Shown: positions 33,843 through 59,216 of the stretch, piece by piece | How the letters are laid out: each line of letters begins with the position of its first letter | Numbering within the stretch: the stretch's first letter is position 1 | NCBI GenBank assembly: GCA_027493675.1 | Contig: JAOSKI010000003.1 | Coordinates: forward strand, 1-64,000 | Reading direction: 5' to 3' | DNA length: 64,000 nt | Origin: Microthrixaceae bacterium | GTDB lineage: Bacteria; Actinomycetota; Acidimicrobiia; Acidimicrobiales; Microtrichaceae | The notes under the pieces: model-generated | What the model was told of the DNA's origin: nothing | What the model saw: the letters and a program-made list of their open reading frames with translations, nothing else | Database searches by the model: none | Translations under genes and position numbers: made by a program

Positions 33843-36378
33843 ATGGCCGAGGGCGCCACCATGGGTACGAAGAAGTCACCACACCGAGGGAACCACGACC
33901 CGGACACCTACCGCACGGTCGTGCAGGTGAGGATGGTGACCGCCGTCGTAATCGGTGCGACCATCGCGACACTCCCGATGCTGGGAGACCACCGGGTGCT
34001 GATCGGCCTGTCGGTGGCAATCATTGCCTTGGCCGTGGATCTGCACGCACTGGGGGCCATCGCCCGCAACCGCCGGCCGCCTGCCGCGCTCGGGATCTCC
34101 GATCTGGTGCTGGTCCTGGTGGTGATGTGGCTGGTTCCGGAGTCCATGGCGGCCGGGAGCCTCATCGCGCTCGGAGCGATCACGCTGCTGGTGCTGTGGC
34201 ACGGACCGCTGGTCGCGGTGCTGTACGGCCTGGCCTTCGAGGTCGGACTCGCCGTGGTGTCGTTGGCACATGCGCCCGCCGGGTGGCCGGCGGTGATGCT
34301 GGCCTTCGCCTTCACCACGGTCGGCACCGGCGTTGCGCTGGCGACCCTGACACGCACCACGAAGGCCGCCCAGGATCGCTTCATCTCGATGGTCAACGGC
34401 CTCGACGCCGTGGTCTGGGAGAGCGACGGCGACGACAACCTGCTGTTCGTCTCGGGCAACGTCGCCGACGTCCTCGGCACCGATGGCAGGACCTTCGCCC
34501 GCCGGGGCTTCTACTACTCACGCGTGCACCCCGATGATCTCCCGGCGTTTGAGGCCTGCCGCGAGGCACAGATGCGAGGCGAAAGCACCGAGGCGCACTT
34601 CCGCATCCGCGACGACCAGCAGGACTACCGCTGGATCCAGGAGCGCCAGAAGGTGTCACTGAACCCCCGACGGCACCACGCGGCTTCGACGTGGCCTGGT
34701 GGTGGACGAATCCGCACGTTGGAGGGCGGAGGCGGGACTGCGACGCTACATGGACTTCATCGAGGGCATCCCCGTCGCCCTCGGGGTGCTTCACCTGGTG
34801 GATGTCCACGATCCACGCTCGCTCGAAGTGGCGACCTCCAACCCCGCGGCAAGATCGCTGCTGTCCGCCAACCCGGGCGACCGGCTGTTGGACGTGATCG
34901 AACTCGACCGGCACTGGCTCGAGGAGTTCTCCGAGGTCGCCCGCGGCGGGGCACCGATGGAGCGTCCGTTCGTGAACCTCCCGGATTCCGACGCCGTCTA
35001 CACGCTGCGCGCCGTGACGCTGCCCGAACACCACATCGGCGTCACGATCGAGGACGTCACCAAGCGCGCCAGCGTCGCGGCGTCCTTCCGCCACCAGGCC
35101 CTGCACGACGAGCTCACGGGGCTTCCCAACCGTGCCCATCTCCGCGAGCGGCTCACCCAGGTCATGGCCTGCGACGATCCCGGTGCCTCCGCGCTGCTGC
35201 TCGTGGACCTCAACCAGTTCAAGGAGATCAACGACACCCTCGGTCACCACTACGGCGACCGACTCCTGAGGGCTTTCTCCCACAGGCTGTCGACCAACCT
35301 GCGCGGGTGTGACCTCATAGCGAGGCTCGGCGGTGACGAGTTCGCGGTGCTGATCACCGACGATGCCGCGGAGACCGGCGCCATCGAGGTGGCGGAACGC
35401 CTGCTCGCACTGTGTGGCCAGCGCTTCGAGATAGACGAGTTCCGCTTCCAGATCGGCGCCTCGGTGGGGATCGCGCTCGCCCCCACGCATGCAACCAGCC
35501 CGGAGAGCCTCCTGCGGAAGGCCGACGCCGCAATGTACTGGGCCAAGGCGAGAGGCGGCGGATGGTCCTTGTACTCCGCGACGCACGACGACCACGACGT
35601 GCGGCGCCTCGAGCTCATGGGCGATCTGCGCGACGCGATCTCCGACGGATCGATGGAGGTCCACTATCAGACCCGGGTCCGCCTCGGTGACAACCGACCC
35701 GTTGGCCTCGAGGCGCTCGTCCGCTGGCGCCACCCCCGCTACGGCCTGCTCCCACCCGAGGACTTCATCGAGCTGGCCGAGGTGTCGGGGTGCATCCGGG
35801 AGCTCACCGAGTTCGTCACCACAACTGCGATCGCCGAGGCGTCGTCCGTCCTCGAACGAGACGGACTCGGCCTGAGCGTAAACCTGTCGGCTCGCACCCT
35901 GCACGATCCGCGCCTGGTGGATTGGCTTCGCACCACAGTCGTGGAATCCGATCTGGACGACGGGCGTCTCTGCTTCGAGATCACCGAGACCGATCTGATG
36001 GAGGACTCCGCACGCTCCATCAACACGCTCGAGGCGATCCGTGCACTCGGTGTCCGGTTGAGCGTGGACGATTTCGGCACCGGCTACTCGTCGTTGTCGT
36101 ACCTCCGTCGGCTCCCGGTCGACGAGGTGAAGATCGACCGCAGCTTCGTGAGCGACCTGACCGACGACGACACGATCGTGCGTGCGGTGGTCGACCTCGG
36201 CCACAACCTCGGGCTGCACGTCGTGGCCGAAGGGGTGGAGAACGCTGCCATCGAGGAACGCCTTGCCCAACTCGGTTGTGACAGCGCGCAGGGGTTCCTG
36301 TGGGGACAGCCGGTTCCCATCTCCGAGGTCACCGACCAGTTGACCAGGCTGCGGTCGACCAGGCCCGCCATGGGTTGA
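33843..36378 (+). CDS. Membrane-bound PAS-GGDEF-EAL protein (one frameshift)
   Basis: About 845 residues. Four or more membrane segments occupy residues 30-165 (for example VTAVVIGATIATLPMLG, LVLVLVVMWLVPESMAAG). A PAS/PAC region follows (FVSGNVADVLGTDGRTFARR). The GGDEF domain has an intact site LGGDEFAVLITDD and the opening HDELTGLPNRAHLRERL. The EAL domain has GLEALVRWRHP, CFEITETDLMEDS and VDDFGTGYSSLSYL with the catalytic acidic residues. The protein therefore could make and degrade cyclic di-GMP in response to a membrane or PAS signal. A frameshift near 34670 lies between PAS segments. The ATG at 33843 has GGAGG nearby. Confidence 0.93.
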
Positions 36379-36434
36379 GCTCGACCACGCCTCACCTTCC
36401 GGATCAGTGGCGTCGGTAGGTAGCGTGTGCGGCC

Positions 36435-38040
36435 ATGAGCAGCCTCCTCAGCATCCCAGCAGACCTCCCCGCAGCAGACCAGGCTCTCCGTGCGGCCCAG
36501 AGCGTGGTCGACTCCGCCATCGCCCGGTTGGCCACCGAGGGCATCGAGGACAACCAGGTCCTCGCGTACGACACCGCACATGCCGCCGCCGGAGTGATGG
36601 CGGCCCGCGGCCTGCTGGAATACGGGGCGACCGGTGAGGTGGAGGGTGCCGTCACATGCGCCTTCGCGGCCGACGTGATCGCTGACCTCGCCGCCAAGGT
36701 GTTCGGGCGCGAGGACGACTGGGGCGTCGAAGCCGGAGCACTGGATGCAGCACGCAGCTTCACCGCTGCGTACCGCGACCCCCGATTCCTGTCGTCGTTG
36801 CACGCACACGACGGCTCACGGGGCCTCGACGACGACTTCGAGATGGTGCAGGACACCTTCCGGCGCTTCGCCGAGGAGAAGCTCATGCCCATCGCGGAGC
36901 ACATCCACCGGCACAACGACGACATCCCCGAGGAGATCATCGCCGGACTCGCCGAGATGGGCGCGTTCGGCCTGTCGATCGACGAGGGATACGGCGGCTT
37001 CGCGTCCGGGAGCGAGTCCGACTACATCGCGATGGTCGTGGCCACCGAGGAGCTGAGCCGCGCGAGCCTGGGAGCCGGTGGATCGCTGATCACCCGTCCC
37101 GAGATCCTCGCCCGCGCACTGGAGGCCGGCGGAACCGAAGAGCAGAAGCAACGGTGGCTGCCGAAGCTGGCCGCAGCCGAGGTCATGAACGCGGTGGCGG
37201 TCACAGAACCCGACTACGGCTCGGATGTGGCAGGGGTGAAGGTGACCGCCACCGAGACCGACGGTGGCTACCTCATCAACGGCGTGAAGACCTGGTGCAC
37301 CTTCGGCGCCCGCGGACGTGCTCATGCTGCTGGCACGCACCGATCCCGACCGGGCCGCAGGACACCGTGGACTGTCGATGTTCATCGTGCCCAAGGAGCG
37401 CGCCGACGGTCACGGCTTCGAGCTCACCCAGGACAACGACCACGGCGGCGGGAAGATGGAGGGCCGCCCGATCGACACCATCGGATACCGCGGGATGCAC
37501 TCCTATGAGATCGCGTTCGACAACTGGTTCGTCCCCGCCGGCAACCTCATCGGCGGTGAGGACGGCAAGGGTCGCGGCTTCTACTACCAGATGGCCGGCT
37601 TCGAGAACGGCCGGCTGCAAACCGCAGCGCGCGCCGTAGGGGTCATGCAGGCGGCACTGGAGACCGCTCGCGAGTACGCGGCGGACCGCGCCGTGTTCGG
37701 CCAACCCATCGAGCAGTACCAGCTCACCCAGGCCAAGCTCGCGCGCATGGCGGTGACCATCCAGGGCGCCCGCCAGTTCAGCTACCAGGTGGCCAGGATG
37801 ATGGCCCGCGGCGAGGGCACCCTCGAGGCCTCGATGATCAAGGCCTACGTGTGCAAGGCCGCCGAGTGGGTCACACGTGAGGCCATGCAGATACACGGTG
37901 GCATGGGCTATGCCGAGGAGTACACCGTGAGCCGGCTGTTCGTCGACGCACGCGTGCTGTCGATCTTCGAAGGCGCGGACGAGGTCCTGTGCGTCAAGGT
38001 CATCGCCCGCCAGCTCGTCGCCGCTGCCAAGGACTCCTGA
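36435..38040 (+). CDS. mcd: Methylsuccinyl-CoA dehydrogenase-type acyl-CoA dehydrogenase (one frameshift)
   Basis: About 535 residues, some 150 longer than ordinary acyl-CoA dehydrogenases because of an N-terminal helical extension (residues 1-125, SLLSIPADLPAADQALRAA). That length and layout are features of (2S)-methylsuccinyl-CoA dehydrogenase of the ethylmalonyl-CoA pathway. Family motifs follow: AVTEPDYGSDVAGVKV, GRLQTAARAVGVMQAALE, VFGQPIEQYQLTQAKLARMA and MQIHGGMGYAEEYTVSRLFV, with the catalytic glutamate in SIFEGADEVLCVKVIARQL. One frameshift near 37315 is spanned by a run of C and G. Two CoA-ester lyases of the same pathway lie just downstream on the other strand, which supports the specific call. 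Confidence 0.82.
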
Positions 38041-38061
38041 CGCGTCCAGCTCGGGACTGGT

Positions 38062-38517
38062 TCAGCCCTGGGCGCCCGGAACCATGCGGATGTTGATCGG
38101 GTACCGGTACCACTCGCCGCGGTTGGCCGCCATGGTGGCCATGATCCCCAACACGACCGCACCGATCCACAAAGCGAAGAACGTGAAGTAGCCGATGCAC
38201 ACGAACATCAGGATGCCCGACACGATGTAGCCGATCAGGACGGTCAGCTGGAAGTTGAGCGACTCCGCCGCGTGGTGCTTGACGAAGGGTTGGTCGTCCT
38301 TGGCCACGAGATAGATCACCAACGGCCCGAGGAAGCCGGTGAAGATGCCCAGCAGCTGTGCAAGCATCGCCATCGTCTTCTCGTCGGTCCCTCCCGAGCC
38401 AGTCGCCTGCACGGGCACCTGTGCCGGCTGGGTGGAGGCGGTCCACTGGGTCCCGTCCCAGTAGCGCGTGACTCCTGCCTCGTCGGGATACCAACCGGGG
38501 GGCTGAGGAGCGGTCAT
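38062..38517 (-). CDS. DUF2510 + DUF4870 membrane protein
   Basis: 151 residues, intact. The first ~35 residues, PPGWYPDEAGVTRYWDGTQW, are the DUF2510 module common in actinobacterial membrane proteins. The rest has three membrane segments (LAQLLGIFTGFLGPLVIYLV, FQLTVLIGYIVSGILMFVCI, FFALWIGAVVLGIMATMAAN) and the conserved FVKHHAAESLNFQ of DUF4870. Function unknown. Confidence 0.88.
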   Translation of the reverse strand: MTAPQPPGWYPDEAGVTRYWDGTQWTASTQPAQVPVQATGSGGTDEKTMAMLAQLLGIFTGFLGPLVIYLVAKDDQPFVKHHAAESLNFQLTVLIGYIVSGILMFVCIGYFTFFALWIGAVVLGIMATMAANRGEWYRYPINIRMVPGAQG

Positions 38518-38541
38518 GGAGCCACCCTAGCGCCGTGACGG

Positions 38542-39417
38542 TCAACTCCCGAGGGATTCGACCGCAGCGGCCATCGAGAGCACACGCCGGGCGTTGTCCA
38601 CGTGCAGGTTCTCGATCATCTTCCCGTCCACGGTCACCACTCCCTTGCCCTCGGCCAGGGCCGCGTCCCACGCCTCGATGACCCTGCGGGCGTGGTCGAT
38701 CTCCTCCGCCGAGGGCGAGAAGGCCGCATTGCACGGCTCCACCTGTGAGGGATGGATGATCGTCTTTCCGTCGAAGCCCATCTCGGCTCCCTGCCGGCAC
38801 TCCGCTGCGAAGCCCTCGGGGTTGCGGACGTCGTTGTACACGCCGTCGAGGATCACCTTGCCCGCGTAACGGGCGGCGTTCACGCAACGTCCCAGCCCCC
38901 ACAGCAGCGGCGCACGACCCTCGACCAGCGAAGCACGCAGTTCCTTCGCCATGTCGTTGGTGCCCATCACCAGCACCTCGAGACGCTCCGACGCGGTCGC
39001 CACCTCCACCGCGTTCTCGATCGCCGCAGGTGTCTCGAGCATCGCCCACAGGCGGGTGTGGTCCGGGACGCCGGCTGATTCGATGATCCGCTCCACCGCG
39101 GCCACGTCTGCCGCAGAGTCGACCTTGGGCACCACGATGCCCGCGGGGCCGGCCTCGGCCGCGGAGCGGAGGTCGTCCTCGTGCCACTCGGTCTCCGCGC
39201 TGTTGACCCTGATGGTCAGCTCACGATTGCCGTAGTCACCCGACGCGACTGCGGCCGCGACCTTCTCGCGCGCGATCACCTTCATGTCGGGGGCGACGGA
39301 GTCCTCTGTGTCGAAGATGACGGCGTCACATGCCAGTCCCTTGGCCTTCTCGAGCGCCTTGTCGTTCGCACCCGGCATGTACAGCGCGCTGCGGCGAGGT
39401 CGGTAGGTCTCACTCAT
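38542..39417 (-). CDS. CoA-ester lyase (citrate lyase beta-like)
   Basis: 291 residues, intact. SALYMPGANDKALEKAKGLA opens the TIM barrel; FDTEDSVAP holds metal-binding acidic residues, LWAMLETPAAIENA and GTNDMAKEL follow, and GFDGKTIIHPSQVEPCNAAF is near the C-terminus. Family members cleave malyl-CoA, beta-methylmalyl-CoA or citramalyl-CoA. A GGAGA ribosome site precedes the ATG at 39417. It is downstream of a second lyase gene, from which it is separated by a long palindrome. The substrate (malyl-CoA thioesterase versus lyase activity) cannot be told. Confidence 0.88.
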   Translation of the reverse strand: MSETYRPRRSALYMPGANDKALEKAKGLACDAVIFDTEDSVAPDMKVIAREKVAAAVASGDYGNRELTIRVNSAETEWHEDDLRSAAEAGPAGIVVPKVDSAADVAAVERIIESAGVPDHTRLWAMLETPAAIENAVEVATASERLEVLVMGTNDMAKELRASLVEGRAPLLWGLGRCVNAARYAGKVILDGVYNDVRNPEGFAAECRQGAEMGFDGKTIIHPSQVEPCNAAFSPSAEEIDHARRVIEAWDAALAEGKGVVTVDGKMIENLHVDNARRVLSMAAAVESLGS

Positions 39418-39447
39418 GGGTGTCTCTCCAGTCGTCATCACATCCTG

Positions 39448-39500
39448 CGAACTGTCCGGTGTCAGCCGCGGAATTCCGACGGCTGACACCGGACAGTTCG
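39448..39500. repeat. 21-bp perfect inverted repeat, palindromic loop
   Basis: CGAACTGTCCGGTGTCAGCCG pairs exactly with 39480-39500. The 11-base loop itself contains the palindrome CGGAATTCCG. It lies between the two lyase genes. It could form a very stable RNA hairpin and act as a terminator or processing barrier, but its core (CTGTCCGG...CCGGACAG) recurs elsewhere in the window, so it is more than a one-off terminator. Confidence 0.85.
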
Positions 39501-39535
39501 CTCTGAAAGGTTCGCTCTGAAAGGTTCGCTCTGGC
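39496..39535. repeat. 14-bp tandem repeat, nearly three copies
   Basis: GTTCGCTCTGAAAG begins at 39496, 39510 and 39524, the last copy degenerating after ten bases. The first copy overlaps the right arm of the adjacent inverted repeat. It lies directly downstream of the second lyase gene's stop (on the minus strand), within ten bases. Confidence 0.9.
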
Positions 39536-39545
39536 GGGCAGGGAA

Positions 39546-40607
39546 TCAGAAGCCGTAGAGCTCGGCGAGGTCCGGATCGCGCTCGGCGAGCTCCCGCGCA
39601 AGCTCCACGACCACCTTGCACTGCTTGACCGACGCGTCGTCCTCCATCTTGCCGTGCAACATCACCGCTCCGGTCCCGTCACCCATCGCCTCGATCACCT
39701 CCTGGGCGTGTGCAACCTCAGCGGGCTCGGGCGAGAACACCCTCTTCGCGATGTCGATCTGCACCGGGTGAAGCGACCAGGCCCCCACGCAGCCCAACAG
39801 GTATGCGTTGCGGAACTGGTCCTCGCATGCGACGGTGTCCTTGATGTCGCCGAAGGGCCCGTAGAACGGCAGGATCCCGGCCATGGCGCACGCATCGACC
39901 ATGCGCGAGATCGTGTAGTGCCAGAGATCCTGTTGGAACACGGCGCGGGGCGCGTCGCACGCGGGGCCGTCGTCGCCCGCAGGCGGGTCCTCCCGAACGA
40001 GGTAGCCGGGATGGCCACCACCCACCCGGGTGGTCTTCATCCTGCGGTTGGCCGCCAGGTCCGCCGGACCCAGGCTGAGCCCCTGCATGCGGGGCGACGC
40101 AAGGCAGATCTCCTCGATGTTGGCCACACCACGGGCGGTCTCGAGGATGGCGTGGACCATCAGCGGGCGCTGCAGACCAGCCCGGGCCTCTAGTTGGGCG
40201 AGCAGGCGGTCGACGTAGTGGATGTCCTCGGGGCCCTCCACCTTGGGCACCATGATCACGTCCAGCCGGTCGCCGATCTCGGTCACCAGAGTGGTCAGGT
40301 CGTCGAGCACCCATGGCGAATCGAGGCTGTTCACACGGGTCCACAACTGCGTGTCACCCAGGTCCATCTCCTTGCCCACCTTGACCATGCCCGCCCGGGC
40401 GGCCTCCTTGGAGTCCATGGGGATGGCGTCCTCGAGGTTTCCCAGGAGCACATCGGTCTTGGCTGCGATATCGGGCAGCTTGGCGGTCACCTTGTCGAGA
40501 TGCGGCGGGAAGAAGTGGATCATACGGCTCGGCCGCGTGGGGATCTCCCGAAGCGGCTCGGGTGCTCCCACCGCCAGCGGGGAGAAGAAATCCTTGGGAC
40601 TACGCAC
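39546..40607 (-). CDS. mcl: Malyl-CoA/beta-methylmalyl-CoA lyase
   Basis: 353 residues, intact, larger than the neighbouring lyase. [20 protein letters not shown] then [20 protein letters not shown] are characteristic of the Mcl group that splits beta-methylmalyl-CoA or malyl-CoA. The metal site acids are in [14 protein letters not shown] and the loop [20 protein letters not shown]. The GTG start at 40607 is chosen because of the strong AGGAGGG ribosome site five bases upstream. Together with the methylsuccinyl-CoA dehydrogenase candidate it indicates glyoxylate- and propionyl-CoA-forming reactions. Confidence 0.88.
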
Positions 40608-40790
40608 GGGCCCTCCTGAGCGTTCCGACGACAGCTTCACTGCAGGCCGGCGGCGATCGTCACAGCCGGCCGACCCGACGGTAGACAGCGCCCAGGATCG
40701 GGGCCAACTCCTGGGGGCGCCGCGCACGTTCGCCGCATCACCCCGACGAGAGTTGGTGCCCCCTGAGGATTCCACCGCACGTCAGGGTCT

Positions 40791-41773
40791 ATGGTCACCC
40801 GCATGCGGGCCGTCGTGTGCAGGGAACTGGGACCACCTGAGTCAGTCACCCTGGTGGAGCGCGACCTCCCGGAGCTGGCCGACGACAGGGTCCGGGTCCG
40901 CGTGGGAGCGGCCGGAGTCAACTACGTGGACGGGCTCTTCGTGCAGGGCCGCTACCAGATCCGCCCCGAGTTGCCCTTCGTGCCCGGATCGGAGCTCGCC
41001 GGAACCGTGATCGAGGTAGGGGGCGCAGTCACTGGATGGGCTCCGGGCGACCGAGCGATGGCATCGGTTGGCCTTGGAGCGTTCGCCGGCGAGATCGACC
41101 TGCACCCCGCCCAACTCACTGCGGTCCCCGACAACCTCACCGACACCCAGGCGGCCACCCTGGGCCAGTCCTACGCCACGGCGTGGTTCAGCCTCACCCG
41201 GCGCACCCAGGTCCACCCCGGTGAGTGGATCCTCGTGCTGGGTGCCGCCGGCGGGGTGGGCCTGGCCACCCTGGACGTAGCCCGGGCGCTGGAGCTCAAC
41301 ACGATCGCCGCTGCGTCTGGTCCCGACAAGCTGGAGCTGTGCATCCGCCGCGGGGCTCACGAGGTGATCGACTACGTCACCGACGACCTCAAGTCCCGGG
41401 TCCGGGAGCTGACCGGAGGTGGCGCCGACATCGCTGTGGATCCCGTGGGGGGCGGGCACACCCAGGCAGCTCTACGATCGCTTGGGGACTTCGGCCGACT
41501 CCTGGTGATCGGTTTCGCGTCGGGGGACATCCCCGACATCCCGACCAACCAGGTGCTCCTCCGGAACCGGTCGGTCCTGGGAGTGGACTGGGGATCTGGG
41601 CCATGACCAACCCCACAGCCAACACCGAACTGATGACCGAGGTGCTCCGAAGCGCCGCAGAAGGGGTGCTGAACCCCATCGAGCCGGAGTCCCGTCCGCT
41701 CGAAGCCGCTGGCGAGGCGATGAGGGACCTGTTGGATCGCAGGGTCGCCGGCAAGCTCTGCCTGGTGCCGTGA
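40791..41773 (+). CDS. NADPH:quinone oxidoreductase-like zinc-type dehydrogenase (one frameshift)
   Basis: About 327 residues. MRAVVCRELGPPESVTLVER opens the quinone oxidoreductase branch of the medium-chain dehydrogenases. The NADPH loop VLGAAGGVGLATLDVARAL is intact, and FGRLLVIGFASGDIPDIP is conserved. No zinc-binding cysteine cluster is visible, as expected for this branch. A frameshift near 41600 separates the final ~60 residues ending KLCLVP. Either of two in-frame ATGs at 40791 and 40803 could be the start. Confidence 0.88.
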
Positions 41774-41876
41774 AGGCCCTCGCCGGGAGCGAACCGCTCC
41801 GGGAGGTGAACCCGCCCGGAGAAGCACCGAGCGATGAGCTCGGGCGGTCCGGTGGCGCAACCGTTCGACCCAGGAG

Positions 41877-42806
41877 CTAGTTGGCACCCGGATCAGGCTC
41901 GGGAGGTTCAGTCGCCCCGGGCTGGGTGGCACCAGGCTCAGTGGCACCGGGCTGGGTGGCACCGGGCTCGGCGGCGCCAGGCTGCGTGGCGCCAGGCTCG
42001 CCGCCCTCCAGATCCACGGGCGTCTCGAGACCCTCGTTGCTGCCCGAATCGACACCTGAGGGTGCCTTGCCCGCCACGAGCTCGTCGGCCAGACGCTTCC
42101 AGGTCCTCGATCGGTACCTCTCCCGAGCCGCGCTGCCACACCTTGCCCTCGGCATCGACGAACACGAAGTAGGGGAAGCCCGTGAGGCCCCCACGATGCC
42201 GCGGCACTCTGCCCGTCGTCGTCGAGCAGCACAGGTGGCAGCCAACCTTCCGAGGCGAGCCAACGTGAGGGAGGGTAGTTGGGTTGGTTGGAATCCACGC
42301 CGGTCGAGACCGCGTAGATGTCGAGGTCCTCGGGCACCTCGCCCGAATCGATCCAGTCCTGGATCAGGGGCACCTCGTTCTGGCAGTGAGGGCACCAGTG
42401 GGCCACGAACACCACCAGCTTCGGCTTGCCGTCGGAGCCGTCGATGGTCACCTCGGACTCGTCGAAGCTCTGGCCGACCAGCGTCGGGACCTCGAGTCCC
42501 ACAGCAGGATCCTCCGATGCGGTCGCCAGGAACCCACCGGTGTCGGGCAACTCGGGTAGGTCCTCCCCGGAGATCTGCACAGTGGCGTTCTCCTGGGTGG
42601 CGTTCTGGGCAGCATCCTGACCTGTGCCCGCCTCGGCCTTCCCACCGCCACCGTCGTCTGACGGCCACAGGAACACGATCGCCGCGATGATCGCTATCAC
42701 CGCGACGGTCGCACCGCCGATCATCAGGCCCAGGTTGGGGCGGTTCTCGCTGGTGCGCTTGGACATGTCGTCGTAGGGGGTTGGCGCCCCTGCGGGTGTC
42801 GTTCAT
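41877..42806 (-). CDS. TlpA-like thiol-disulfide protein with PGAT-rich tail (frameshifted)
   Basis: About 305 residues. After a short cytoplasmic start comes one membrane anchor LMIGGATVAVIAIIAAIVFLW, then an acidic linker, then a thioredoxin fold with the redox motif WCPHCQNE in FVAHWCPHCQNEVPLIQDWI and the cis-proline segment GFPYFVFVDAEGKVWQR. The C-terminus is a low-complexity tail of PGATQPGATE-like units, about 35 residues. It should act outside the membrane. Frameshifts are near 42785 (in a run of five C), 42190 and 42100. Its start overlaps the stop of the DsbB-like gene by ATGA, so the two form a redox pair. Confidence 0.8.
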   Translation of the reverse strand: MNDTRRGANPLRRHVQAHQREPPQPGPDDRRCDRRGDSDHRGDRVPVAVRRRWRWEGRGGHRSGCCPERHPGERHCADLRGGPTRVARHRWVPGDRIGGSCCGTRGPDAGRPELRRVRGDHRRLRRQAEAGGVRGPLVPSLPERGAPDPGLDRFGRGARGPRHLRGLDRRGFQPTQLPSLTLARLGRLAATCAARRRRAECRGIVGASRASPTSCSSMPRARCGSAARERYRSRTWKRLADELVAGKAPSGVDSGSNEGLETPVDLEGGEPGATQPGAAEPGATQPGATEPGATQPGATEPPEPDPGAN

Positions 42807-43406
42807 CAGGTCTGCTCCGCTCCGATCGGTTGGCCGAGGCTATCCCCCGGGGTGACGGCGACGGCATCACGAGGGCGAGCCATCACCAACAGCACCGCGA
42901 TGGTCAGGAACGCCAGCCAGGCCATGCCGGGGATCGACAGGAAGTGGTACTTCCAGATCCACACCGTGGTGCACGGGACCTCCTTGTCACACGAGGACGC
43001 CACGTCGTCGGGGAACCGCTCCAGGATGTAGTGGTAGGTGGAGATGCCCGCACCGATCAGCACCATCGGAATGGAGATCCACCGGATCCACAGCCACCGG
43101 CCGATCGCGGCTGCACCCAGGAGGATGGTCTGGGGGTACATGAAGTACCGCTGGAGCCAGCAGAGGTGACACGGCGGCAGCTTCTCCACCTCCGAGAGCC
43201 ACAGGCTGCCGAAGGTCGTGGTGGCCGCGACGGCGAAGGCCATCCAGAGCGCGGCCTCACCGATGCCGTCACGCGCCTGGCGCACGGGTTCGGGGAGCCG
43301 TCCTGCCATGGAGCCGCCAGAGCGAGAACACCGCGACGGCGATCAGGAACGCCAGGCACAGCAACGCGAGCAGCGACAGGAAGGTGATCATCTTCGAGTC
43401 GATCAC
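42806..43406 (-). CDS. DsbB-like disulfide bond formation protein (one frameshift)
   Basis: About 199 residues. After MITFLSLLALLCLAFLIAVAVF, an extra N-terminal helix in another frame, come the helices AALWMAFAVAATTTFGSLWL and others. The CHLC redox pair is in LPPCHLCWLQRYFMYPQTIL, and a second pair in SSCDKEVPCTTVWIWKY. It would pass electrons from a periplasmic or exported thiol oxidase to quinone. Between the parts lies a single shift near 43312. The start is GTG at 43406 or ATG at 43391. Coupled to the TlpA-like gene. Confidence 0.85.
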
Positions 43407-43450
43407 GGAGGTGACTCTAACCGTGCCGACCGCGATTCCGGCACCCCTGC

Positions 43451-43504
43451 CGTTCTGTAGTCGCGTGCGTGGCGCACAGCGCCACGCACGCGCGACACAG
43501 AACG
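43451..43504. repeat. Long inverted repeat with ~24-bp stem
   Basis: CGTTCTGT and GTCGCG and TGCGTGGCGC on the left pair with the right arm, with a three-base loop ACA; the inner 14 bp are perfect, and small bulges occur further out. It lies between the ADH stop and the DsbB start. The outer part ACAGAACGAGG is identical to the end of a third palindrome at 59169-59221. Confidence 0.8.
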
Positions 43505-43517
43505 AGGAATTGGGGCA

Positions 43518-43575
43518 GCTCAGCGCGCTGGCGGCTCAGCGTGCTGGCAGCTCAGCGCAGCTGGCGGCTCAGCCC
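43518..43575. repeat. 16-bp tandem repeat, three and a half copies
   Basis: GCTCAGCGCGCTGGCG-like units begin at 43518, 43534, 43550 and 43567 (spacing 16, 16, 17). They stand between the ADH stop at 43585 and the long inverted repeat, the same order as at the 39,500 locus. Confidence 0.8.
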
Positions 43576-43584
43576 GCCGGAAGG

Positions 43585-44682
43585 TCAGTCCATCAGCAGC
43601 ACGGTGCGCAGGCCACGACCGGCCACGGCATCGGCAACAGCCTCGTTGACTTCGTCGAGCGGCCTGCGCGCGGTGACCATCGCATCCAGCGGCAGCCGTC
43701 CCGCTTGCCAGAGCTCGACCACCCTGGGGATGTCGCTCAGCGGATTGGACGACCCGAGCAGAGACCCCTTCACGGTCTTCTCCGGGAACATCATCGATGA
43801 CCGGGCTCAGCGACACGCTGGGCGTCGATCGGCGCCGCACCCACCAGCACGGCCTCCCCCACCGTTGCAGGTGGCTGCGACGGCGGTGTCGATCAGCTCC
43901 ACGGATCCGACGGCATCGAAAGCCGAGTCGACGCCCCCGTCCACCAGGTCCATGACCTCGGCGACCACGTCGGCGGCGGTCGGGTCGATCACGTGGGTGG
44001 CACCGAACGCCATGGCCTGCTCGCGGCGGGATTCCGACGGATCAGACACGATCACCCTGGTTGCGCCTGCGATCGCGGCTCCCGCCGCGATCGACACGCC
44101 GATGCCACCGGCGCCCAGCACCAGCACCGAGTCACCGGGTTGGATCGAGGCCGTGTTCAACGCAGCCCCGACCCCCGTCTGCACGGCACAGCCGATCACA
44201 CATGCGACATCGAGGGGGACGTCGTCGGGGATCTTCACCGCACCCCCGGCCAGGACGTTGACCTCGGTCGCCCATGCAGCGACACCGAGTCCGCGGTAGA
44301 CCACCTCCCCCGCCAGCGACAGCCCGGTCGAACCGTCGGGGAAGGTCGACGTCATCAGCGCGGAGGTCTCGGTGCAGGTGCCGGGTCGTCCCCGCCGGCA
44401 GGACCGGCAGTGCCCGCATGCAGGGTTGGGGCTCAGCACGACATGGTCCCCGACCTCGAGGCGAGTCACACCGGCTCCGACCTCGGTCACGACACCAGCG
44501 GCCTCGTGACCTGGGATGGTCGGACCCATCAGCGGGAAGGATCCGTCGGTCAGCGAGATGTCCGAATGGCAGACCCCGCAGGCAGCGACCCGCACCCGCA
44601 CCTGCCCCGGACCCGGAGGGGCGATGTCGACCTCGACGACCTCGATCGGTTGGCCGGGCTGGCTGAGAACGGCTCCTCGCAT
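43585..44682 (-). CDS. Zinc-dependent alcohol dehydrogenase, MDR family (frameshifted)
   Basis: About 366 residues. AACGVCHSDISLTDG and GHEAAGVVTEVGAGV give the catalytic zinc site; PACGHCRSCRRGRPGTC gives the structural zinc cysteines. The NAD loop VLVLGAGGIGVSIAAGAAIA is intact. It resembles the class III/formaldehyde or long-chain type used with glutathione, mycothiol or mycofactocin; the substrate is unknown. The AGGAG ribosome site and ATG at 44682 are clear. Frameshifts occur near 43860 and 43800. Confidence 0.9.
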
Positions 44683-44779
44683 GATGTCTCCTTGTCTGGC
44701 GTGTCGTGATGCCTGTCCCATTGCGACGATGTATGTGCCATTGGGACGCTCGCGTACCCCGACCGTAGCGCCACTGCGC

Positions 44780-47595
44780 TCATTCGGGGAGATCGCTGAA
44801 CGCCACCCGTTCCACGAGACTGCGTACCTCGTCGACCAGGACGTACGCCAACGCCAGGCCCACACAGATCCCCCACTGCCCGATCGACAGCCCGACAGTG
44901 TCGAAGACCCCCTGCAGGAACGGCAGCTCCACGACCAACACCTGCACACCGACCACGGAGCCCAGCGCCATCCAGAGGTACCGGTTGGTCACGCTGTGGC
45001 GCGACACCACGGTGCCACGGCCGAGCGCACCACCAGCGCGTTGGCCATCTGCAGCAGCACGAAGGTCGTGAATGCCATCGTGAGGGCCTCGTCGGTGCCG
45101 AACTCGCCTTCGCCCACCCACAGCACGCCCAGGGTGAGCGCTGTCATCACGGTGGCCCCCAGCACGATGCGTACCAACCTGGATCCACTGAGGATCGGAG
45201 CGTCGGTGTCCCGTGGCGGCCTGCCCATGATGCCCGGCTTGGGTGGATCCACGCCCAGGCTCACAGCCGGTGGGCCGTCCGCGATGATGTTGACGAACAG
45301 CACCTGTATGGCGGTGAACGGCGTGGGCAACCCCAGCAGGCGACCGAAGAGGATCGAACCGATCGCCGCCATGTTGGTGGTCAACTGGAACCGAACGAAG
45401 CTCAGGATGTTGTCGTAGATCGCCCGGCCGCGCCGCACGGCCGCGACGATGGTGGCGAAGTTGTCGTCGGCGAGAACCATGTCGCCGGCTTCCTTGGTCA
45501 CCTCGGTGCCGGTGATGCCCATGGCGACGCCGATGTCCGCGTTCTTGAGCGCCGGTGCGTCGTTGACCCCGTCGCCGGTCATGGCGACCGTCTCCCCGTT
45601 GGTCTGCAGCGCCTGCACCACACGCACCTTGTGCTCGGGAGACACCCGGGCACACACCCCCACCTCACGGATGCGCTCGGCCAGCTCGGCGTCGCCGAGT
45701 GCCTCGATCTCCGCACCGGTGATCACCTCACCGGGGATTCCCAACTCCGCTGCGATCGCACCCGCGGTGGTCGCGTGGTCCCCGGTGATCATCCTCACCT
45801 CGATCCCGGCGTCGTGGCAGCGCCCGACCGCCTCCACCGCCTCGGGCCGGGGCGGGTCGAGGATGCCCACGAGGCACCTCGAGCTCGAGATCACCCACCT
45901 CGGCGGCGAGATCCGCTTCGAACTCCGAGGCACGGACCGGTAGCGAGCGGGAGGCCACCGCCAGCACCCGTAGGCCCGCCGAACCGAGTGCGGAGTTCTC
46001 CTCCATCACCCTACCGCGGAGGCGTTCGTCGAGCTCGACTGCGGTCGCACCGACACCGAGCGCGACGCAACGATCGAGGACCACATCGGGTGCGCCCTTC
46101 ACCACCAACTGGGACCGGTCGGTGTCGTCCGGGTGCTGGTGCAACGTCGCCATGAACTTCTTCGTGGAGTCGAAGGGCACCTCGGCCATGCGTGGCCGTG
46201 AACGACGCAGCGAAGCGACGTCAACGCCGACCTTGGCCGCCAGCACCACCAGAGCCACCTCCGTGGGATCGCCCACGACCTCGACCGCCTCGCCGTCGCC
46301 GTCGAAGCGCACCTCGGCGTCGTTGCACAGCGCTCCCAGGGCGATGGACGCATCGCGGTGCCTCCGTTCTCCTGACCCGCCGGGGTCCCCCGCAGCCACG
46401 GTGGATGCCGGGAAACCGTCCGTGTCGGGCGTATCGGCAACCGACCCGACGATCCCGTAGCCCAGGCCCGAGACATCGAAACGGCCCGAACCCGTGATCA
46501 CCTTCACAGCGGTCATCTGGTTGAGGGTGAGGGTCCCGGTCTTGTCCGAGCAGATGGCGGTGGTGGACCCGAGCGTCTCGACCGAGGCAAGGCGCTTCAC
46601 GATGGCGTTCTGTTCGGCCATGCGCGACACACCCAGCGCCAGCGTCACCGTGACGACCGCCGGGAGGCCCTCCGGGATGGCAGCGACCGCCAGGGCGACC
46701 GATTCGATCATCGCCTCTTCGAGATCCTCACCCTGCAGGATCGCCAGGGCGAACACGACCAGCACCGCCACCACCGCGATGGCCGCAAGCCGCTTGCCCA
46801 GGGCATCCAGCTGTCGTTGCAGGGGCGTGAGCTGCTGGGGCGCTTCGGCCAGCATCCCGGCGAGGCGACCCACCTCGGTGCTCATCCCGGTGGCGACGAC
46901 CACCAGGTCACCGCGCCCTCGCACCACGGTGGTGTTCATGAACCCGCAGTTGTCCCGGTCCCCGAGCGACTCGACCTCCTCTGCGGACAACGTGGCGGCG
47001 TGCTTGTCGGAGGAACCGACTCGCCGGTGAGTGCGGACTCCTCGATCCCGAGGTTGTTGGTGACCACGAAGCGCCCGTCGGCCGGCACCCGGTCACCTGC
47101 TTCGAGCAACACCACGTCACCCGGAACGAGCTCCGACGCGGGAACCTCGCGCAGTGCGCCGTCGCGCCGGACCCGCACCACCAGCTCGAGCATCTCCGAG
47201 AGGGCCTCCATCGCCGCATCGGCGCGGTTCTCCTGGATGAACCCGAACACCCCGTTGATGAGCAGGACGACCAGGATCACGATGGGATCCTGGATGTCGC
47301 CGACCGCGGCCGAGATCACCGCGGCGCCGAGCAACACGTAGGTGAGCACGTTGCGGAACTGCGCGAGCAGGCGCTTCCAAGCGGGGTCCGGCTCGGCCTC
47401 GGCCAACTGGTTGGCTCCGAAGGCCTCGGTACGCCGGGACACCTCGGACGCATCCAGGCCCTCGAGCGGGTCGACTCCCAGCGCCGTCGCCACGTCGACC
47501 GATGACATCGTCGCGACCGTTGCACTGTCCAGAATCGAGTCCTGCGACGCCAGGTCGGTGATCACCGCGCCGGAGGCGCGCTCGGGTTCGTGCAT
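44780..47595 (-). CDS. P-type cation-transporting ATPase, PII (Ca2+-like) (frameshifted)
   Basis: About 935 residues. The phosphorylation site is ICSDKTGTLTLNQM; the membrane motif AIPEGLPAVVTVTLALGVSR, hinge MTGDGVNDAPALKNADIGVA and TGES actuator loop ESALTGESVP are present. The sixth-helix segment FVNIIADGPPAVSLGVDPPK is typical of PII ATPases that pump calcium or related cations. It lies in the cell membrane. Frameshifts near 47015, 45890 and 45030 interrupt it. The ATG at 47595 gives MHEPERASGAVITDL. Confidence 0.92.
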
Positions 47596-47718
47596 CGCGC
47601 TGAACGCTACCGGTTCCACGCAGGCACGCTCGCGTCGGTGACCGCCACGCACCCCCGCTGTCGCACGGCTCGCCTCCGGTAGCGGCCCACCTGGATGCCT
47701 TGGTGGTCCACGCCGATG

Positions 47719-47940
47719 TCAGCGGATCCCGCAGGCGCGTCGACTCCTCGCGTACCGCTCGATCTCGAGCACGTCGAAGCACCACTCGTTGCCGACCCGG
47801 TCGGCCGCCAGCGCACCCGCTGCCACGAGCCGTCGCAGGGCATCGGGGGTGACGCCCAGGCGATGGGCCGCCTCGCTCTGGTTGCAGCGATGTCGTCCTC
47901 GCATGAATGGGGTGTCGGCACAACCGGATGCGCACTTCAC
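47719..47940 (-). CDS. Small MerR/excisionase-type HTH protein with N-terminal cysteines
   Basis: 73 residues from the GTG at 47940; a shorter version starts at the ATG at 47904. QSEAAHRLGVTPDALRRLVAAG is the helix-turn-helix of excisionase/MerR-like proteins. The N-terminal KCASGCADTPFMRGRHRC has three cysteines and could bind zinc. It lies 124 bp upstream of the P-type ATPase on the same strand and might regulate it; no direct evidence. Confidence 0.6.
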   Translation of the reverse strand: MKCASGCADTPFMRGRHRCNQSEAAHRLGVTPDALRRLVAAGALAADRVGNEWCFDVLEIERYARSRRACGIR

Positions 47941-47992
47941 GTTTTCGCCACTCTCAGCACCTGCCCACCTCGCCCGGGGCCCGAACCGCTGC

Positions 47993-48840
47993 TCAGGCGT
48001 CGTCGGGACGCGGGGGGATCTCATCGAAGCGAGCCGCGCGCCCCTCTGCCTTGGCGACGAACTCCTCGGCCATGTCGCCGCCCACGAACATCCCGGACTG
48101 CCAGCCGGCGATGTGGCGCAGCGAGTCCGCCACCGAGTGGTCACGGCTGTAGTTGATCGCCTCCTTGGTACCCCAGATGGCCAGCGGGGAATGCGTCGCG
48201 ATCCGTGCCGCGATCTCCAAGGTGCCCTCCACCAGTGCGGCGTGGTCGTCGAAGACCTGGTTCACCAGACCGACCTCCACGGCACGCTGCGCGGGCATGC
48301 GGTCACCGGTGTAGGCGAGCTCCCGGGCGATGCCTTCGGGGATGATCTTGGGCAGACGCTGCAGCGTTCCCACATCGGCGGTCATCCCGATGTTGATCTC
48401 CTGGACGCAGAAGAAGGCATCCGAGGAGCAGTAGCGCATGTCCGCAGACACACCATGTCGACTGCGCCGCCGATGCAGCCGCCCTGGATGGCGGCCAGCA
48501 CGGGCATGCGGGCGCGCTCCAACGCCGTGAAGGAATCCTGGAGGTGCTGGACGAGCATCCACAGGTACGACGCCCGACGACCCGCTTCGGTGGCACCGCC
48601 TCCGTTGGACAGCGCGTTGCCACCGGTGAACACCGACAGGTCCATGCCTGCCGAGAAGTGCTTCCCGGTGGAGGAGATCACGATCGCCCGGGCCTTCGCG
48701 CCCGCGTCGATGTCCGGAGACGATCGCCGGCAGTTCGCTCCAGAAGCTGGGCACCATGGTGTTCAACTCGTCGGGTCGGCTCAGCTGGATGTGGGCGACT
48801 CCTCGGAGATCGAGACCTCGAAGCACTCGTGCACGACCAC
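47993..48840 (-). CDS. Dienoyl-CoA isomerase-type enoyl-CoA hydratase family protein (frameshifted)
   Basis: About 280 residues. FSAGMDLSVFTGG and LAAIQGGCIGGAVDMVSACD, then SSDAFFCVQEINIGMTADVG and TLQRLPKIIPEGIARELAYT closely follow the delta-3,5-delta-2,4-dienoyl-CoA isomerase branch of crotonases, with acidic residues in the active-site positions. It would move double bonds during oxidation of unsaturated acyl-CoAs. Frameshifts are near 48790, 48710 and 48450. The GTG start at 48840 is chosen from context; others are possible. Confidence 0.85.
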
Positions 48841-48860
48841 GACGCTACCCGGAGACGCGA

Positions 48861-50018
48861 TCAACGTGGCGAAAGCCAGCGGCCGTGGTAGTCGGCATGG
48901 GCCACCAGGCCGTCGGCGCCGTCGGGGAAGGTGCGCAACCACACCGCTGCGCGCCGGCGGTCCCATTCGTCGGGCTCGTAGCGCACCCACGCCAGGGGTT
49001 CGGCGCCGGTCGCGCGTTCGCCGGCGGCCTCGATCACCTCGGTGATCCGCCAACGCACATCGGTCGGGATGTACTGCCAGGCGATGGAGTGCATGACCAC
49101 CGGTCGGGCCTCCACGTCGGAGCACTTCCTCCAGCACCGACGCGGTGTCGCCCAGGGGTCGTCGCCGGGCCCGACATCACCGGTGACCGCCGCACCGGAG
49201 CGCGATCCGCGGGACACGGCGATCAGCTCCGCTGGGAAGCTCAGCGCCACCGAGATGGCTGCATCGGTCCGGGCGAGTCGATCGAGCTGATCTGGCCACT
49301 ACGAAGGACTGCACGTCTTCGGCGCCGTCGGGCCGGGTCACATCGATCGGGTGTGGGTCGAGACCCACCCTCTCGGTGAACACGGGCAGGGAAAGCCCTG
49401 CGTGACGCAGCCCACCGAGTGAGCCGCGGATCTCGGGGCGGATCTGCACCGTGCTCCCGGGGTGGCCGAGCACCATGCCGGCGAGGTCGATCTCGAAACG
49501 GTCGAAACGCAGGTTCAACCCGGCCGAGCAGCCCAGCTCCACGAGCCGCGCCTCTTTCATGCGGGCCTCGGCGACCGCCAAAGCGAGGCCTGCGCAGCGG
49601 CCGACCTCGTTGGTCTGGACCTCGCGCCCGAGGCCGCCTGTGAGCTCCTCGGATTGCCGCTCGACCAGTGCCCGCCAGGACACCAGCAGGGCCTCGTCGC
49701 TGAGAGGGACCCGACCTCCACAGCTGGGCAGCAGCGCGGCCCATTGCGGTGCCGCACCGGTGAGCGCCAGGCGGTGCGCCGCTGCGAGCAGCCGCAACGG
49801 CCCCGCCTGACCGAAGCGCAGTTCGCCTCCGGCACGCTCCCCTGCTGCACGCAGCACGTCCCAGGTCGAACCTCCTGCGGCCACGTCTTCGGCGACCACG
49901 ACGAGCAACCCGCGTAGAGATCGGATCCCAACTCCGCGCATGCCTGGGCCTGCTGGTCGAAGCGCTTCGCCCACAGCTGCCTGCGGTCCTCGGGGTGAGC
50001 GTCGCCGGGCACAGGCAT
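48861..50018 (-). CDS. DUF2332 family protein (frameshifted)
   Basis: About 385 residues. RAAGERAGGELRFGQAGPLR and LVELGCSAGLNLRFDRF, which looks like a SAM-binding glycine segment, then PVVMHSIAWQYIP and WRITEVIEAAGERA are DUF2332 landmarks. Function unknown, perhaps a methyltransferase relative. Its ATG overlaps the stop of the amidohydrolase gene (TGATG). Frameshifts are near 49920, 49300 and 49130. Confidence 0.78.
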
Positions 50019-51236
50019 CAGTCGGGTCGCCGGAGCCAACCGGGAGGACGTGCGAGGAACCGCTGTGCAACCGACACGTGCAACGCCACACCGGTCGCCA
50101 TGGCGTCCTCGTTCAAGGTCATGCGGTTCGAATGACACGCCGGCGCCGTCAGGGGGTTCCGGTTCCCCCACAGGACAGGCACCCAGGAAGGCCATCGCAC
50201 CCGGGACCTTGGCGAGCACGTAGGAGAAGTCCTCGGCTCCCATGACCGGTGTGGGGATCTCGATCACCGAGCCGGGACCGATCGTGTCACCGGCGACCTC
50301 GGTGAGGAACTGCGTGAACGCCGCGTCGTTGAGCGTCACGGGATAGCCCGGATCCAACTCCACCTCGACGGTGCAACCGTGGGCGTCGGCCACCCCCTTC
50401 ACGACACGGCAGACGCGCTCGGTCACCCCCTGTCGGACACGCTCGTCGACGGTGCGGATCGTTCCCACCATCTGCGCCGTCTCGGGGATCACGTTGCTCG
50501 TGGTGCCCGCATGAAGGCTGCCCACGGTCACAACGGCGGGGTTGAACGCATCCACGGTGCGGGTGACCATCGACTGCAGGGCGAGCACCGCCTCCGCGGC
50601 CACCGGCACCGGGTCGGTCGCCCAATGGGGGCTCGATGCGTGCCCACCGCGGCCGGTGAAGGTGATCACGAACTCGTCGGTAGCAGCCAGCATCGGTCCG
50701 GGCCTGACACCCAGTTGACCCGAGGCAAGGTTGGGTGTGACGTGCAGCGCGAACGCTGCGTCCACCCCGTCGAGCACACCCTCGTCGATCATCACCGCGG
50801 CACCGCCGTGGCCCTCTTCGCCGGGCTGGAACATGAACCGGATACGGCCGCTGAGCGAGTCGCGGATCCCCGCAAGCGACCTTGCCGCGCCCACGAGCAT
50901 CGCAGGTGTGGGCGTCGTGGCTGCACGCGTGCATTCGGCCCTCGGTCTCCGAGGAGAACTCGAGGCCCGTGTCCTCGGGCATCGGGAGCGCGCCCATGTC
51001 GCCGCGCAGCAGGATCGTGGGACCGGACCGGCCGGTGTCCAGGTCCGCCACGACCGATGTGAGGGCGCTTCCCGGCGGACCGTGAGGTCGCAGCCCTGCA
51101 GGGATTCCTCGACGGCGGCCTGGGTGCGTGGCAGGTCCAGGCCCACTTCCGGGTGGCTGTGGAGCCGCCGACGAAGTGCCACGACGTCGCTGTGGACCTC
51201 CGAGGCAAGGACATGGGGATCGTGCATCGGTGTCAT
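50018..51236 (-). CDS. M20 family amidohydrolase (frameshifted)
   Basis: About 405 residues. RLHSHPEVGLDLPRTQA is the start of the M20D group. ILLRGDMGALPMPEDTGLEF, MHACSHDAHT, FQPGEEGHGGAAVMID and ALHVTPNLASGQLGVRPG follow, with metal-binding histidines and the glutamates in place. It likely deacylates N-acyl-amino acids or hippurate-like compounds. Frameshifts occur near 51070, 50900 and 50160. The ATG at 51236 overlaps the lysoplasmalogenase stop (ATGA). Confidence 0.87.
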
Positions 51237-51865
51237 GGCTTGCCGAGGAGGCTGAGCACGATCCCGATCTGCCCGAGGTGGTAGGTGGTCATGATCGCAA
51301 GCCGATGATGAGCGAACGTTGTGATGAACCGGCTCCATCCGATGAACGCATCGGATGCGTAGAACAACAGCGCGCCTACGATGGCCCACCATCGTGTGGT
51401 CCCGAAGGCGAACGCGACCATCAGCGAGATGACGCACACGTAGGCACCGACCGCGAACCCGAGCGTCCGGTCGTCCCGCGAGGCTCCCACGATCAGCTTC
51501 ACGCCGATCACCACCACCAGCACGCCCACGACCACCAGGCCGAGCAGCAGGGGCACCAGTTCGAGGCCCATCACGGCGAACGCCGCGATGTAACACAGGT
51601 GCGCGACCAGGAACGATGCGAGACCGGGAACGAAGCGGTCCTCGAGCATCAGGAACACGTCACCCGCGAGCGATGCCGACAGCCCTGCGACCACCCACCA
51701 GCGCGCTGCGGGCGGATCCGGCGCCGCCATCGCGATCGTCGCTGCAACCAGCACCACCATGGTCAGCGGCTTCAGGAGGTACTCCGCCCCTCGGCGATCC
51801 CGCGCGACCGCAACCCAGTCGGCCGCTGCAACGATTCCGGTTGCACCTATTAGGGCTGCGAACAT
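51233..51865 (-). CDS. Lysoplasmalogenase-like (YhhN) membrane protein
   Basis: 210 residues with about eight hydrophobic segments, among them LLKPLTMVVLVAATIAMAA, VVAGLSASLAGDVFLMLED and FLVAHLCYIAAFAVMGLELV; the family acids are in GDVFLMLE and ASDAFIGWSRF. TMEM86-type enzymes hydrolyse vinyl ethers of lysoplasmalogens. The GGAG before the ATG at 51865 supports the start. It overlaps the amidohydrolase gene. Intact. Confidence 0.85.
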   Translation of the reverse strand: MFAALIGATGIVAAADWVAVARDRRGAEYLLKPLTMVVLVAATIAMAAPDPPAARWWVVAGLSASLAGDVFLMLEDRFVPGLASFLVAHLCYIAAFAVMGLELVPLLLGLVVVGVLVVVIGVKLIVGASRDDRTLGFAVGAYVCVISLMVAFAFGTTRWWAIVGALLFYASDAFIGWSRFITTFAHHRLAIMTTYHLGQIGIVLSLLGKP

Positions 51866-51995
51866 CGAGATGTCTCCGGTGGGACGTGGTGCCCGCAGAA
51901 TGCCACATCGTCGTTCAACCCGAGTCGGAAAAGCGCTGCGACACCATCGACGTCGAAGGAGGGCCCGCCAGGTGCCGGCGGCTTCAATCCTCTCT

Positions 51996-52186
51996 TCAAT
52001 CCTCGATGCAGATGGCCTGCTTGGGACACCGCCTGCCGCCTCCTCCACCTTCGGGCGCAGCTCCTCGGGTGGTTCCTCCATGAGGATGTAGAGCACGTCG
52101 TCATCACGCACCTCGAATACCGACGGCTCGATGCCCATGCAGATGGCGTTGGCTTCACACAGGTCGTAGTCAATGACGATCTTCAT
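51996..52186 (-). CDS. Single-cluster ferredoxin (one frameshift)
   Basis: About 63 residues. YDLCEANAICMGIEPSVFEV, then RCPKQAICIED near the C-terminus across a shift at about 52025, give the 3Fe-4S/4Fe-4S pattern of cytochrome P450-type ferredoxins (alanine replaces one cysteine in C-x2-A-like spacing). It may feed electrons to a P450 or other oxygenase; none is in the window. The ATG at 52186 starts MKIVIDYDLC. Confidence 0.8.
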
Positions 52187-52245
52187 TCACACGACCATAG
52201 AGGATCCGGTGACAGGGTGAACCGGCACGCTCACCGCTCGACTGC

Positions 52246-52971: not shown

Positions 52972-53036
52972 CACGATCGAATCTAGGCGTCGATCCACCC
53001 GTTGGCTCCTCATCTCCCCGGCACCTCGACTCCCGA

Positions 53037-54867: not shown

Positions 54868-54936
54868 CAGGCGGCTCCCCGATCATCTTCGACTCCCGGC
54901 CACCGCACGGGCTGACCGCACGGACTCCACGCCCTC

Positions 54937-59168: not shown

Positions 59169-59216
59169 TTCTGTCCGGCGGTAGTCGCGGATTCCAGGGA
59201 CTGTAACCGGACAGAA
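59169..59216. repeat. Inverted repeat TTCTGTCCGG in divergent promoter region
   Basis: TTCTGTCCGG at 59169 and CCGGACAGAA at 59207 face each other across 28 bases. The following ACAGAACGAGG is shared with the palindrome at 43451. Its position, between divergent promoters, differs from the other two copies, which lie at gene ends; a dyad-binding regulator is also possible here. Confidence 0.75.

Follow-up and report, generated by a model that had tools for sequence, protein, structure and literature searches.

The stretch of DNA analysed here (the window; 64,000 nt, positions 1-64000 of contig 3 of the 3.44-Mb assembly G000) carries a perfect palindrome between two minus-strand genes, both of which belong to the HpcH/HpaI aldolase/citrate lyase family (PF03328, Pfam). 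The name mcl, under which the earlier note on this DNA had listed one of these neighbours, is possible but unproven. Read along the minus strand, the stop codon TGA of the upstream gene is followed by 12 nt, a run of 14-bp repeats, the palindrome and the start of the next gene, in a stop-to-start spacer of 128 nt overall. The features referred to below are the following.

39447..39501, no strand: focal palindrome with a paired foot GCGAA/TTCGC and 22-nt perfect arms; one of the strict copies of G000, matched on both strands by covariance model R1
39452..39496, no strand: element proper, CTG...CAG, 45 bp at this site (class mode 43/44)
39469..39479, no strand: 11-nt centre CGGAATTCCGA, containing a palindrome
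39496..39533, no strand: 14-bp tandem repeat GTTCGCTCTGAAAG, 2.7 copies, whose first 6 bases are also the last 6 of the palindrome; an edge duplication
39546..40640, minus strand: upstream gene, HpcH/HpaI aldolase/citrate lyase family (Pfam), stop codon 39546-39548
38542..39417, minus strand: downstream gene, also of the HpcH/HpaI family (Pfam)
43455..43500, minus strand: second class member, GTT type, 46 bp with an indel in one arm, behind the ADH gene
43514..43588, no strand: 16-bp tandem repeat, 4.6 copies, reaching from the ADH stop as far as the GTT-type element, between or overlapping both
59171..59214, no strand: third member of the class, an imperfect 44-bp copy (TTCTGTCCGG...CCGGACAGAA) in a divergent spacer

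The order of repeats and palindrome behind the upstream gene is as the earlier note had described it, and its "nearly three" repeats correspond to 2.7 copies with 100% matches, running from 39533 to 39496 on the minus strand (TRF) and sharing six bases (GTTCGC), the last of the arm, with the palindrome. The palindrome is indeed perfect, with arms (39447-39468 and 39480-39501) that are 100% complementary and 11 nt apart; its length, given in that note as 21 bp, needs correction to 22 nt per arm. The loop was rightly called palindromic, since the 11-nt centre encloses the 10-nt palindrome CGGAATTCCG. Among the seven inverted repeats listed for the 64-kb window this one is the longest that is perfect, and when folded as RNA it reached −52.5 kcal/mol (z −13.2), a stability equalled by none of 200 shuffles. 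No T-tailed terminator was found at 38000-41000 of the window. A known RNA family was rejected as a candidate, as none of eight loci matched Rfam at the gathering score. The parallel drawn with the 3′ end of the ADH gene is real: a GTT-CTG...CAG-AAC element and 16-bp tandem repeats lie behind the ADH stop codon (43585-43587). Scans with strict gapless pairing missed this copy because of its arm indel, and it was found by direct reading of the sequence.

A genome search for further copies, set by the earlier note as a test of its idea, yielded the opposite of "no other copies": the pattern CTGTCCGG-N15-32-CCGGACAG occurs at 36 places in G000 and the reversed pattern at none. A covariance model built from 34 strict copies gave 125 strand-wise matches at E ≤0.05; with both strands tallied and 150 of 3835 candidates scored, these correspond by eye to at least about 65 places. 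Class members in G000 number about a hundred, and the focal palindrome is one of them. Most consist of two unlike halves (...TGTCAGCCGCGG / ...TGTGGTGCGCGG), so that pairing holds in the outer stem and next to the centre but is lost in between; the focal copy is one of several that are fully symmetric. By the direction of the flanking genes, the 36 strict copies fall into 10 of the >> type, 11 <<, 6 >< and 4 <>, with 5 inside a predicted frame. This placement at gene ends resembles that in the sister species G002 but is noisier, owing to the broken frames in which G000 is rich (median predicted gene 536 nt vs 950 nt in G002; completeness 55.8%). Frameshifted genes probably explain a completeness of 55.8% at full genome size, and part of the spread in element length in G000 (41-45 bp) may be sequencing error because the assembly has so many broken frames. 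Within the window, frameshifts break genes at 33843-38040, for example a GGDEF/EAL gene and an acyl-CoA dehydrogenase gene. On contig 1 of G000, two near-identical element-bearing segments lie 15 kb apart (L082 and L083, at ~20.8 kb and ~35.8 kb), representing either a segmental duplication or an assembly repeat.

Searches with the stem left free revealed that a class of fixed-length palindromes with common ends and genome-specific stems spans the whole order. Its pattern is [GAA or GTT]-CTG-(~37-38 nt)-CAG-[TTC or AAC], 43/44 bp long, with a palindromic stem that differs among genomes. The strict G000-type pattern was present in 27 of 397 genomes of the order and multi-copy only in G000 (36) and G055 (11); G055 is the genome with the CTGTCCGGG-type family. 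A scan of viral contigs, bearing on a possible phage origin, gave seven stretches (L148-L154) that match CTGTCCGG-N20-32-CCGGACAGTTC, possibly by chance. The sister species G002 has 29 copies of CTGATCGTCGTGGTGC...GCACCACGACGATCAG, with other stem letters and all of exactly 43 bp even though 36-56 bp was allowed; this stem was found in neither G000 nor the other sister species, G001. Across 61 related genomes, the free-stem GAA-type pattern CGAACTG-N35-39-CAGTTCG gave 190 matches, with at least one in 33 genomes (G000 60, G002 21, G049 18, G060 15, G033 and G035 11 each, G023 9) and none for the reversed control, and the GTT-type pattern GTTCTG-N35-39-CAGAAC gave 586 matches in 46 of the 61 (G045 48, G000 41, G037 39, G010 35, G005 28, G046 22, G012 19, G001 17) against 32 for its control; both totals include some non-palindromic coding or chance matches. 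One genome of the same family, G006, has 167 GTT-type matches, far above any other, and is the most promising genome in which to look for a mobiliser. Of 96 free-stem matches in examined loci, 53 were palindromic and the 43 others (coding or chance) were left out. Removal of one duplicate left 52 distinct palindromic examples with widely different stems from 25 further genomes, of which 34 measure 44 bp, 14 measure 43 bp, three 45 bp and one 42 bp under a search pattern that permitted 41-45 bp. In a scan of 396 genomes of the phylum, whose totals likewise contain some coding or chance matches, more than four copies occurred only in G000 and G125 (16), both within the order; the matches listed outside it were mostly non-palindromic by eye, with single palindromic ones in G588 and G735 and a repeat-like one in G493. 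Exact AA-type ends were seen in 4 stretches from unrelated-looking organisms in the named-genome collection.

The stems retain pairing where their letters change. In 26 aligned G002 copies, 93.0% of the cells of 22 stem pairs are paired compared to a shuffle mean of 91.1%, a value reached in 0 of 500 shuffles, and six pairs changed on both sides (as high in 2/500); one interior pair is C-G in 17 copies, G-C in nine and broken in none. In G000, the AA/TT dinucleotides beside the tag covary (own arms 0.989, permuted arms 0.888). G-U pairs occupy 1 of 216 cells of the G002 outer stem and are commoner elsewhere. In the 52 copies from 25 genomes, which were selected for pairing at positions 3-7, the outer stem almost always pairs, positions 9-13 pair in 31-35 copies, and positions 14 and 17-18 in 42-45. 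In both G000 and G002, C makes up about 54% of the left flank within 25 nt, and G about 53% of the right. A single longer hairpin that includes the flanks was rejected, as left and right flanks of the same copy paired no better than permuted ones (significantly) past the first two bases; the C-rich/G-rich bias therefore looks like composition only.

Copies lie mainly just behind stop codons, as judged from genes predicted with a purpose-built codon-bias gene finder. In G002, a stop codon adjoins 25 of 27 copies and is never more than 100 nt away from these 25; only 1 of 25 fully classified copies lies in a divergent spacer compared to 17 of 74 spacers of at least 50 nt in the same loci, a background that includes the element spacers themselves. 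For the other genomes, 43 copies have a flanking stop, and in 42 of these the distance to it is at most 100 nt (median 18); the 46 classified copies comprise 24 convergent, 19 tandem and 3 divergent, and this lack of divergent spacers, measured against a background of the same kind, is not significant in those genomes alone (P = 0.15). At five G002 copies the predicted stop codon lies in the CTGA of the element itself. The genes adjoining G002 elements include ribosomal protein L17, truA, leuS, ilvC and serA-type genes, and none of the 49 is a transposase or recombinase by Pfam. We also rejected the idea that elements are the ends of composite transposons: pairs 1.0-1.6 kb apart enclose ordinary genes, and no adjacent G002 gene is a transposase. 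A DUF559/REase-like gene adjoins an element both in G002 (L213:4141-5067) and in G000 (L086:4877-5748).

The earlier note had called the focal site more elaborate than a terminator. The copies across the genome, the ADH parallel and the missing T tail bear this out, but its composite of gene end, tandem repeats and palindrome is not the constant unit. Tandem repeats touch the element edge at 18 of 92 G000 flanks compared to 12 of 265 control stop-codon flanks (P = 3×10−5), and at 9 of 52 G002 flanks compared to 3 of 36, an enrichment that is not significant (P = 0.35). The repeat unit varies. At the focal site and at L202 in G002 it is 14 bp of flanking sequence alone; elsewhere it combines flank with half an element (26 and 40 bp) or takes in the complete element together with some 18 nt. 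The short repeats are edge duplications and part of the syndrome without being its constant part; the constant unit is the tagged palindrome of 43/44 bp. Extra half-sites 5-65 nt out share the orientation of the near arm, by 40 against 7 in G000 and 22 against 1 in G002. In G045, G037 and G060, eight loci picked for close pairs among the matches listed contain whole-element arrays with 11 neighbour distances, eight of 62 bp, two of 63 bp and one of 94 bp; arrays in G000 are spaced at 61, 61, 62 and 62 bp, with two further close pairs at 70 and 82 bp. The elements do not behave as CRISPR repeats: copies are dispersed, and the few arrays repeat a near-identical spacer of 18-19 nt.

Sites differ between sister species, indicating a high turnover. 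Positions 36400-56300 of the window align with G001 and G002 at about 70-87% identity (main matches). The focal spacer is short and element-free in G002 and holds a different, GTT-type element of 43 bp in G001. Among these three genomes, the ADH site is occupied only in G000. A site at 52.2 kb has an element in G002, none in G000 and, by scan, none in the G001 stretch L280. Of five G002 sites compared with their G000 counterparts, two share the spacer, each species with its own type, and three are empty in G000; this comparison is biased to shared sites by the choice of G000 loci from around elements. The two shared spacers are as compatible with a hot spot or with conserved function as with mobility. 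Neither a target-site duplication nor an empty site within one species was observed, and the spacers of the sister species have diverged too far for a junction to be located. Behind the ADH gene, where G000 has the GTT-type element and 16-bp repeats (43420-43590), an additional open frame, lacking in G000 and by eye resembling a glutathione peroxidase gene, is present in G001 and G002.

We consider it probable that these elements are REP-like palindromic repeats mobilised in trans, and tolerated or used as two-way hairpins at gene ends. They have the broad habit of REPs, with many near-identical, palindromic, extragenic copies per genome behind coding regions. Each member has tags that pair with one another at its two ends (G-AA-CTG / CAG-TT-C or G-TT-CTG / CAG-AA-C) and measures about 43/44 bp overall; its stem pairs well on the outside, often carries mismatches in the middle and pairs again on the inside. 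The tags are common to genomes, and the stem is specific to the genome in which it was amplified. We infer that a putative enzyme spreads copies in trans by recognising the tags together with the geometry of the hairpin or helix, not the stem sequence, so that each lineage would amplify its own stem. Copies would survive mainly just behind stop codons, where they might serve as two-way 3′-end hairpins in termination, RNA protection or RNA processing. The short neighbouring repeats would be duplications made at the edge of the element, and the arrays of 61-63 bp the outcome of the same process when it takes in the whole element and about 9 nt of each flank. Against this reading, Y1_Tnp turned up in just 1 of 14 genomes and no transposase or recombinase among the 49 genes beside G002 elements, target-site duplications were not seen, two spacers are shared by G000 and G002, and the G002 enrichment of tandem repeats is not significant.

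The elements could instead be functional two-way terminators or RNA 3′-end hairpins, kept by selection and not mobile, with the tag bound by a termination or processing factor. We regard this as unlikely, though it would account for the position just behind stop codons, the very stable hairpin, the convergent spacers of 24 of 46 classified copies in other genomes and the two spacers shared between G000 and G002. It is contradicted by the missing T tail and by sister species with entirely different stems at mostly different sites, and it leaves the fixed length of 43/44 bp, the order-wide tags and the 61-63-bp arrays unexplained; the single G-U cell in the G002 outer stem is also unlike a purely RNA-level constraint. 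Still less probable is an origin as MITEs, derived by deletion from a DDE-type transposon with GAACTG or GTTCTG at the start of its terminal inverted repeats. Inverted tags, patchy amplification and genome-specific stems all agree with it, but full palindromy at a fixed 43/44 bp is unexpected for a deletion remnant, neither a full-length element nor an adjoining transposase is found among the 49 genes next to G002 copies, and no target-site duplication was seen in spacers too diverged for junctions.

That these are classical REP or REPIN elements moved by a RAYT, a Y1 tyrosine transposase, seems very improbable despite their position behind genes and their species-specific families. The Y1_Tnp domain (PF01797) was missing in 13 of the 14 genomes tested, and nine of the ten strong carriers are among these 13. 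Genomes without it include G000, G001, G002, G005, G015, G023, G033, G035, G049 and G060; the G000 assembly is imperfect, but those of G002, G005, G035, G049 and G060 are 94-97% complete. The one such protein, which speaks for this account, is in G055 (L200, contig 190:33480-33824). With Y1_Tnp in a single genome, the elements are not the classical REP/RAYT pair; they also lack the one-sided unpaired GTAG or CGTC tag, both ends being paired (GAACTG/CAGTTC or GTTCTG/CAGAAC), and their stems of about 20 bp contrast with the 5-13 bp given in Table 1 of PMC3733652. We give equally little credence to operators of a regulator or a DNA-uptake-type signal. The inverted half-sites would suit either, as would additional, correctly oriented half-sites up to 60 nt away, but the elements lie behind genes and not at promoters, and any excess of single tags in the window is mild (CGAACTG 17 vs 9.5 expected, CGTTCTG 11 vs 9.35), which led us to reject the uptake signal.

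Beyond the trans-mobilised repeat that we favour lies a bolder proposal, possible but doubtful: a third superfamily of tagged palindromic repeats, in which a length-measuring, Y1-free system copies hairpins of exactly 43/44 bp with a free stem, and copying in place lays down a unit of 61-63 bp, or six helical turns. If so, the genome-specific stem would be a record of the hairpin that each lineage last amplified. A length and paired tags that stay fixed around a free palindromic stem make an unusual combination. It sets the tags and geometry, which a mobiliser may read, apart from the stem sequence, which it ignores. Dozens of genomes show this combination, whereas the usual REP enzyme turned up in just one of the 14 tested. 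An old question thereby becomes testable, namely how REP-like repeats such as the CGTC REPs spread without a RAYT. The elements also offer a convenient way to mark hundreds of gene 3′ ends in an order that has received little study.

This class of fixed-length hairpin repeats is little charted. We found no description of a tagged 43/44-bp class in the open-access literature, to which the search was directed (subscription journals lay outside its scope); the consulted portion of the RepRanger paper (PMC12306157) gives counts for one Acidimicrobium genome and no such class, and neither "Actinobacteria" nor a word-initial "GAAC" occurs in the main text of PMC3733652. The elements share with intrinsic (Rho-independent) terminators a stable hairpin behind stop codons, but they form amplified families with common tags, and no T run follows the GC-rich hairpin: the T fraction at positions 5-25 downstream of copies is 0.17-0.21 in G000 and G002. 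Like MITEs such as Nezha, Correia and YPAL, they are non-autonomous inverted repeats of patchy distribution; unlike these, they are shorter, fixed in length and wholly palindromic, with no flanking target duplication seen. With REPIN/RAYT systems they have in common that they are non-autonomous, species-specific, extragenic hairpins, but Y1_Tnp occurs in just 1 of 14 genomes and their unit is not a paired REP doublet. The closest framework is that of the GTAG- and CGTC-tagged REPs (Di Nocera et al. 2013; PMC3733652), short palindromes present in 20 to thousands of copies per genome behind coding regions, with a constant tag and a stem that differs among species; the CGTC REPs have no dedicated transposase, and the tag, one-sided and unpaired beside stems of 5-13 bp (Table 1), can supply a TAG stop codon. 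The present elements are likewise short palindromes behind genes whose tag is constant and whose stem varies by species, and in several G002 copies the tag supplies the stop, as CTGA where the GTAG REPs use TAG. They differ from those REPs in being tagged and base-paired at both ends, in their length of 43/44 bp with arms of about 20 bp, and in forming head-to-tail arrays at 61-63 bp.
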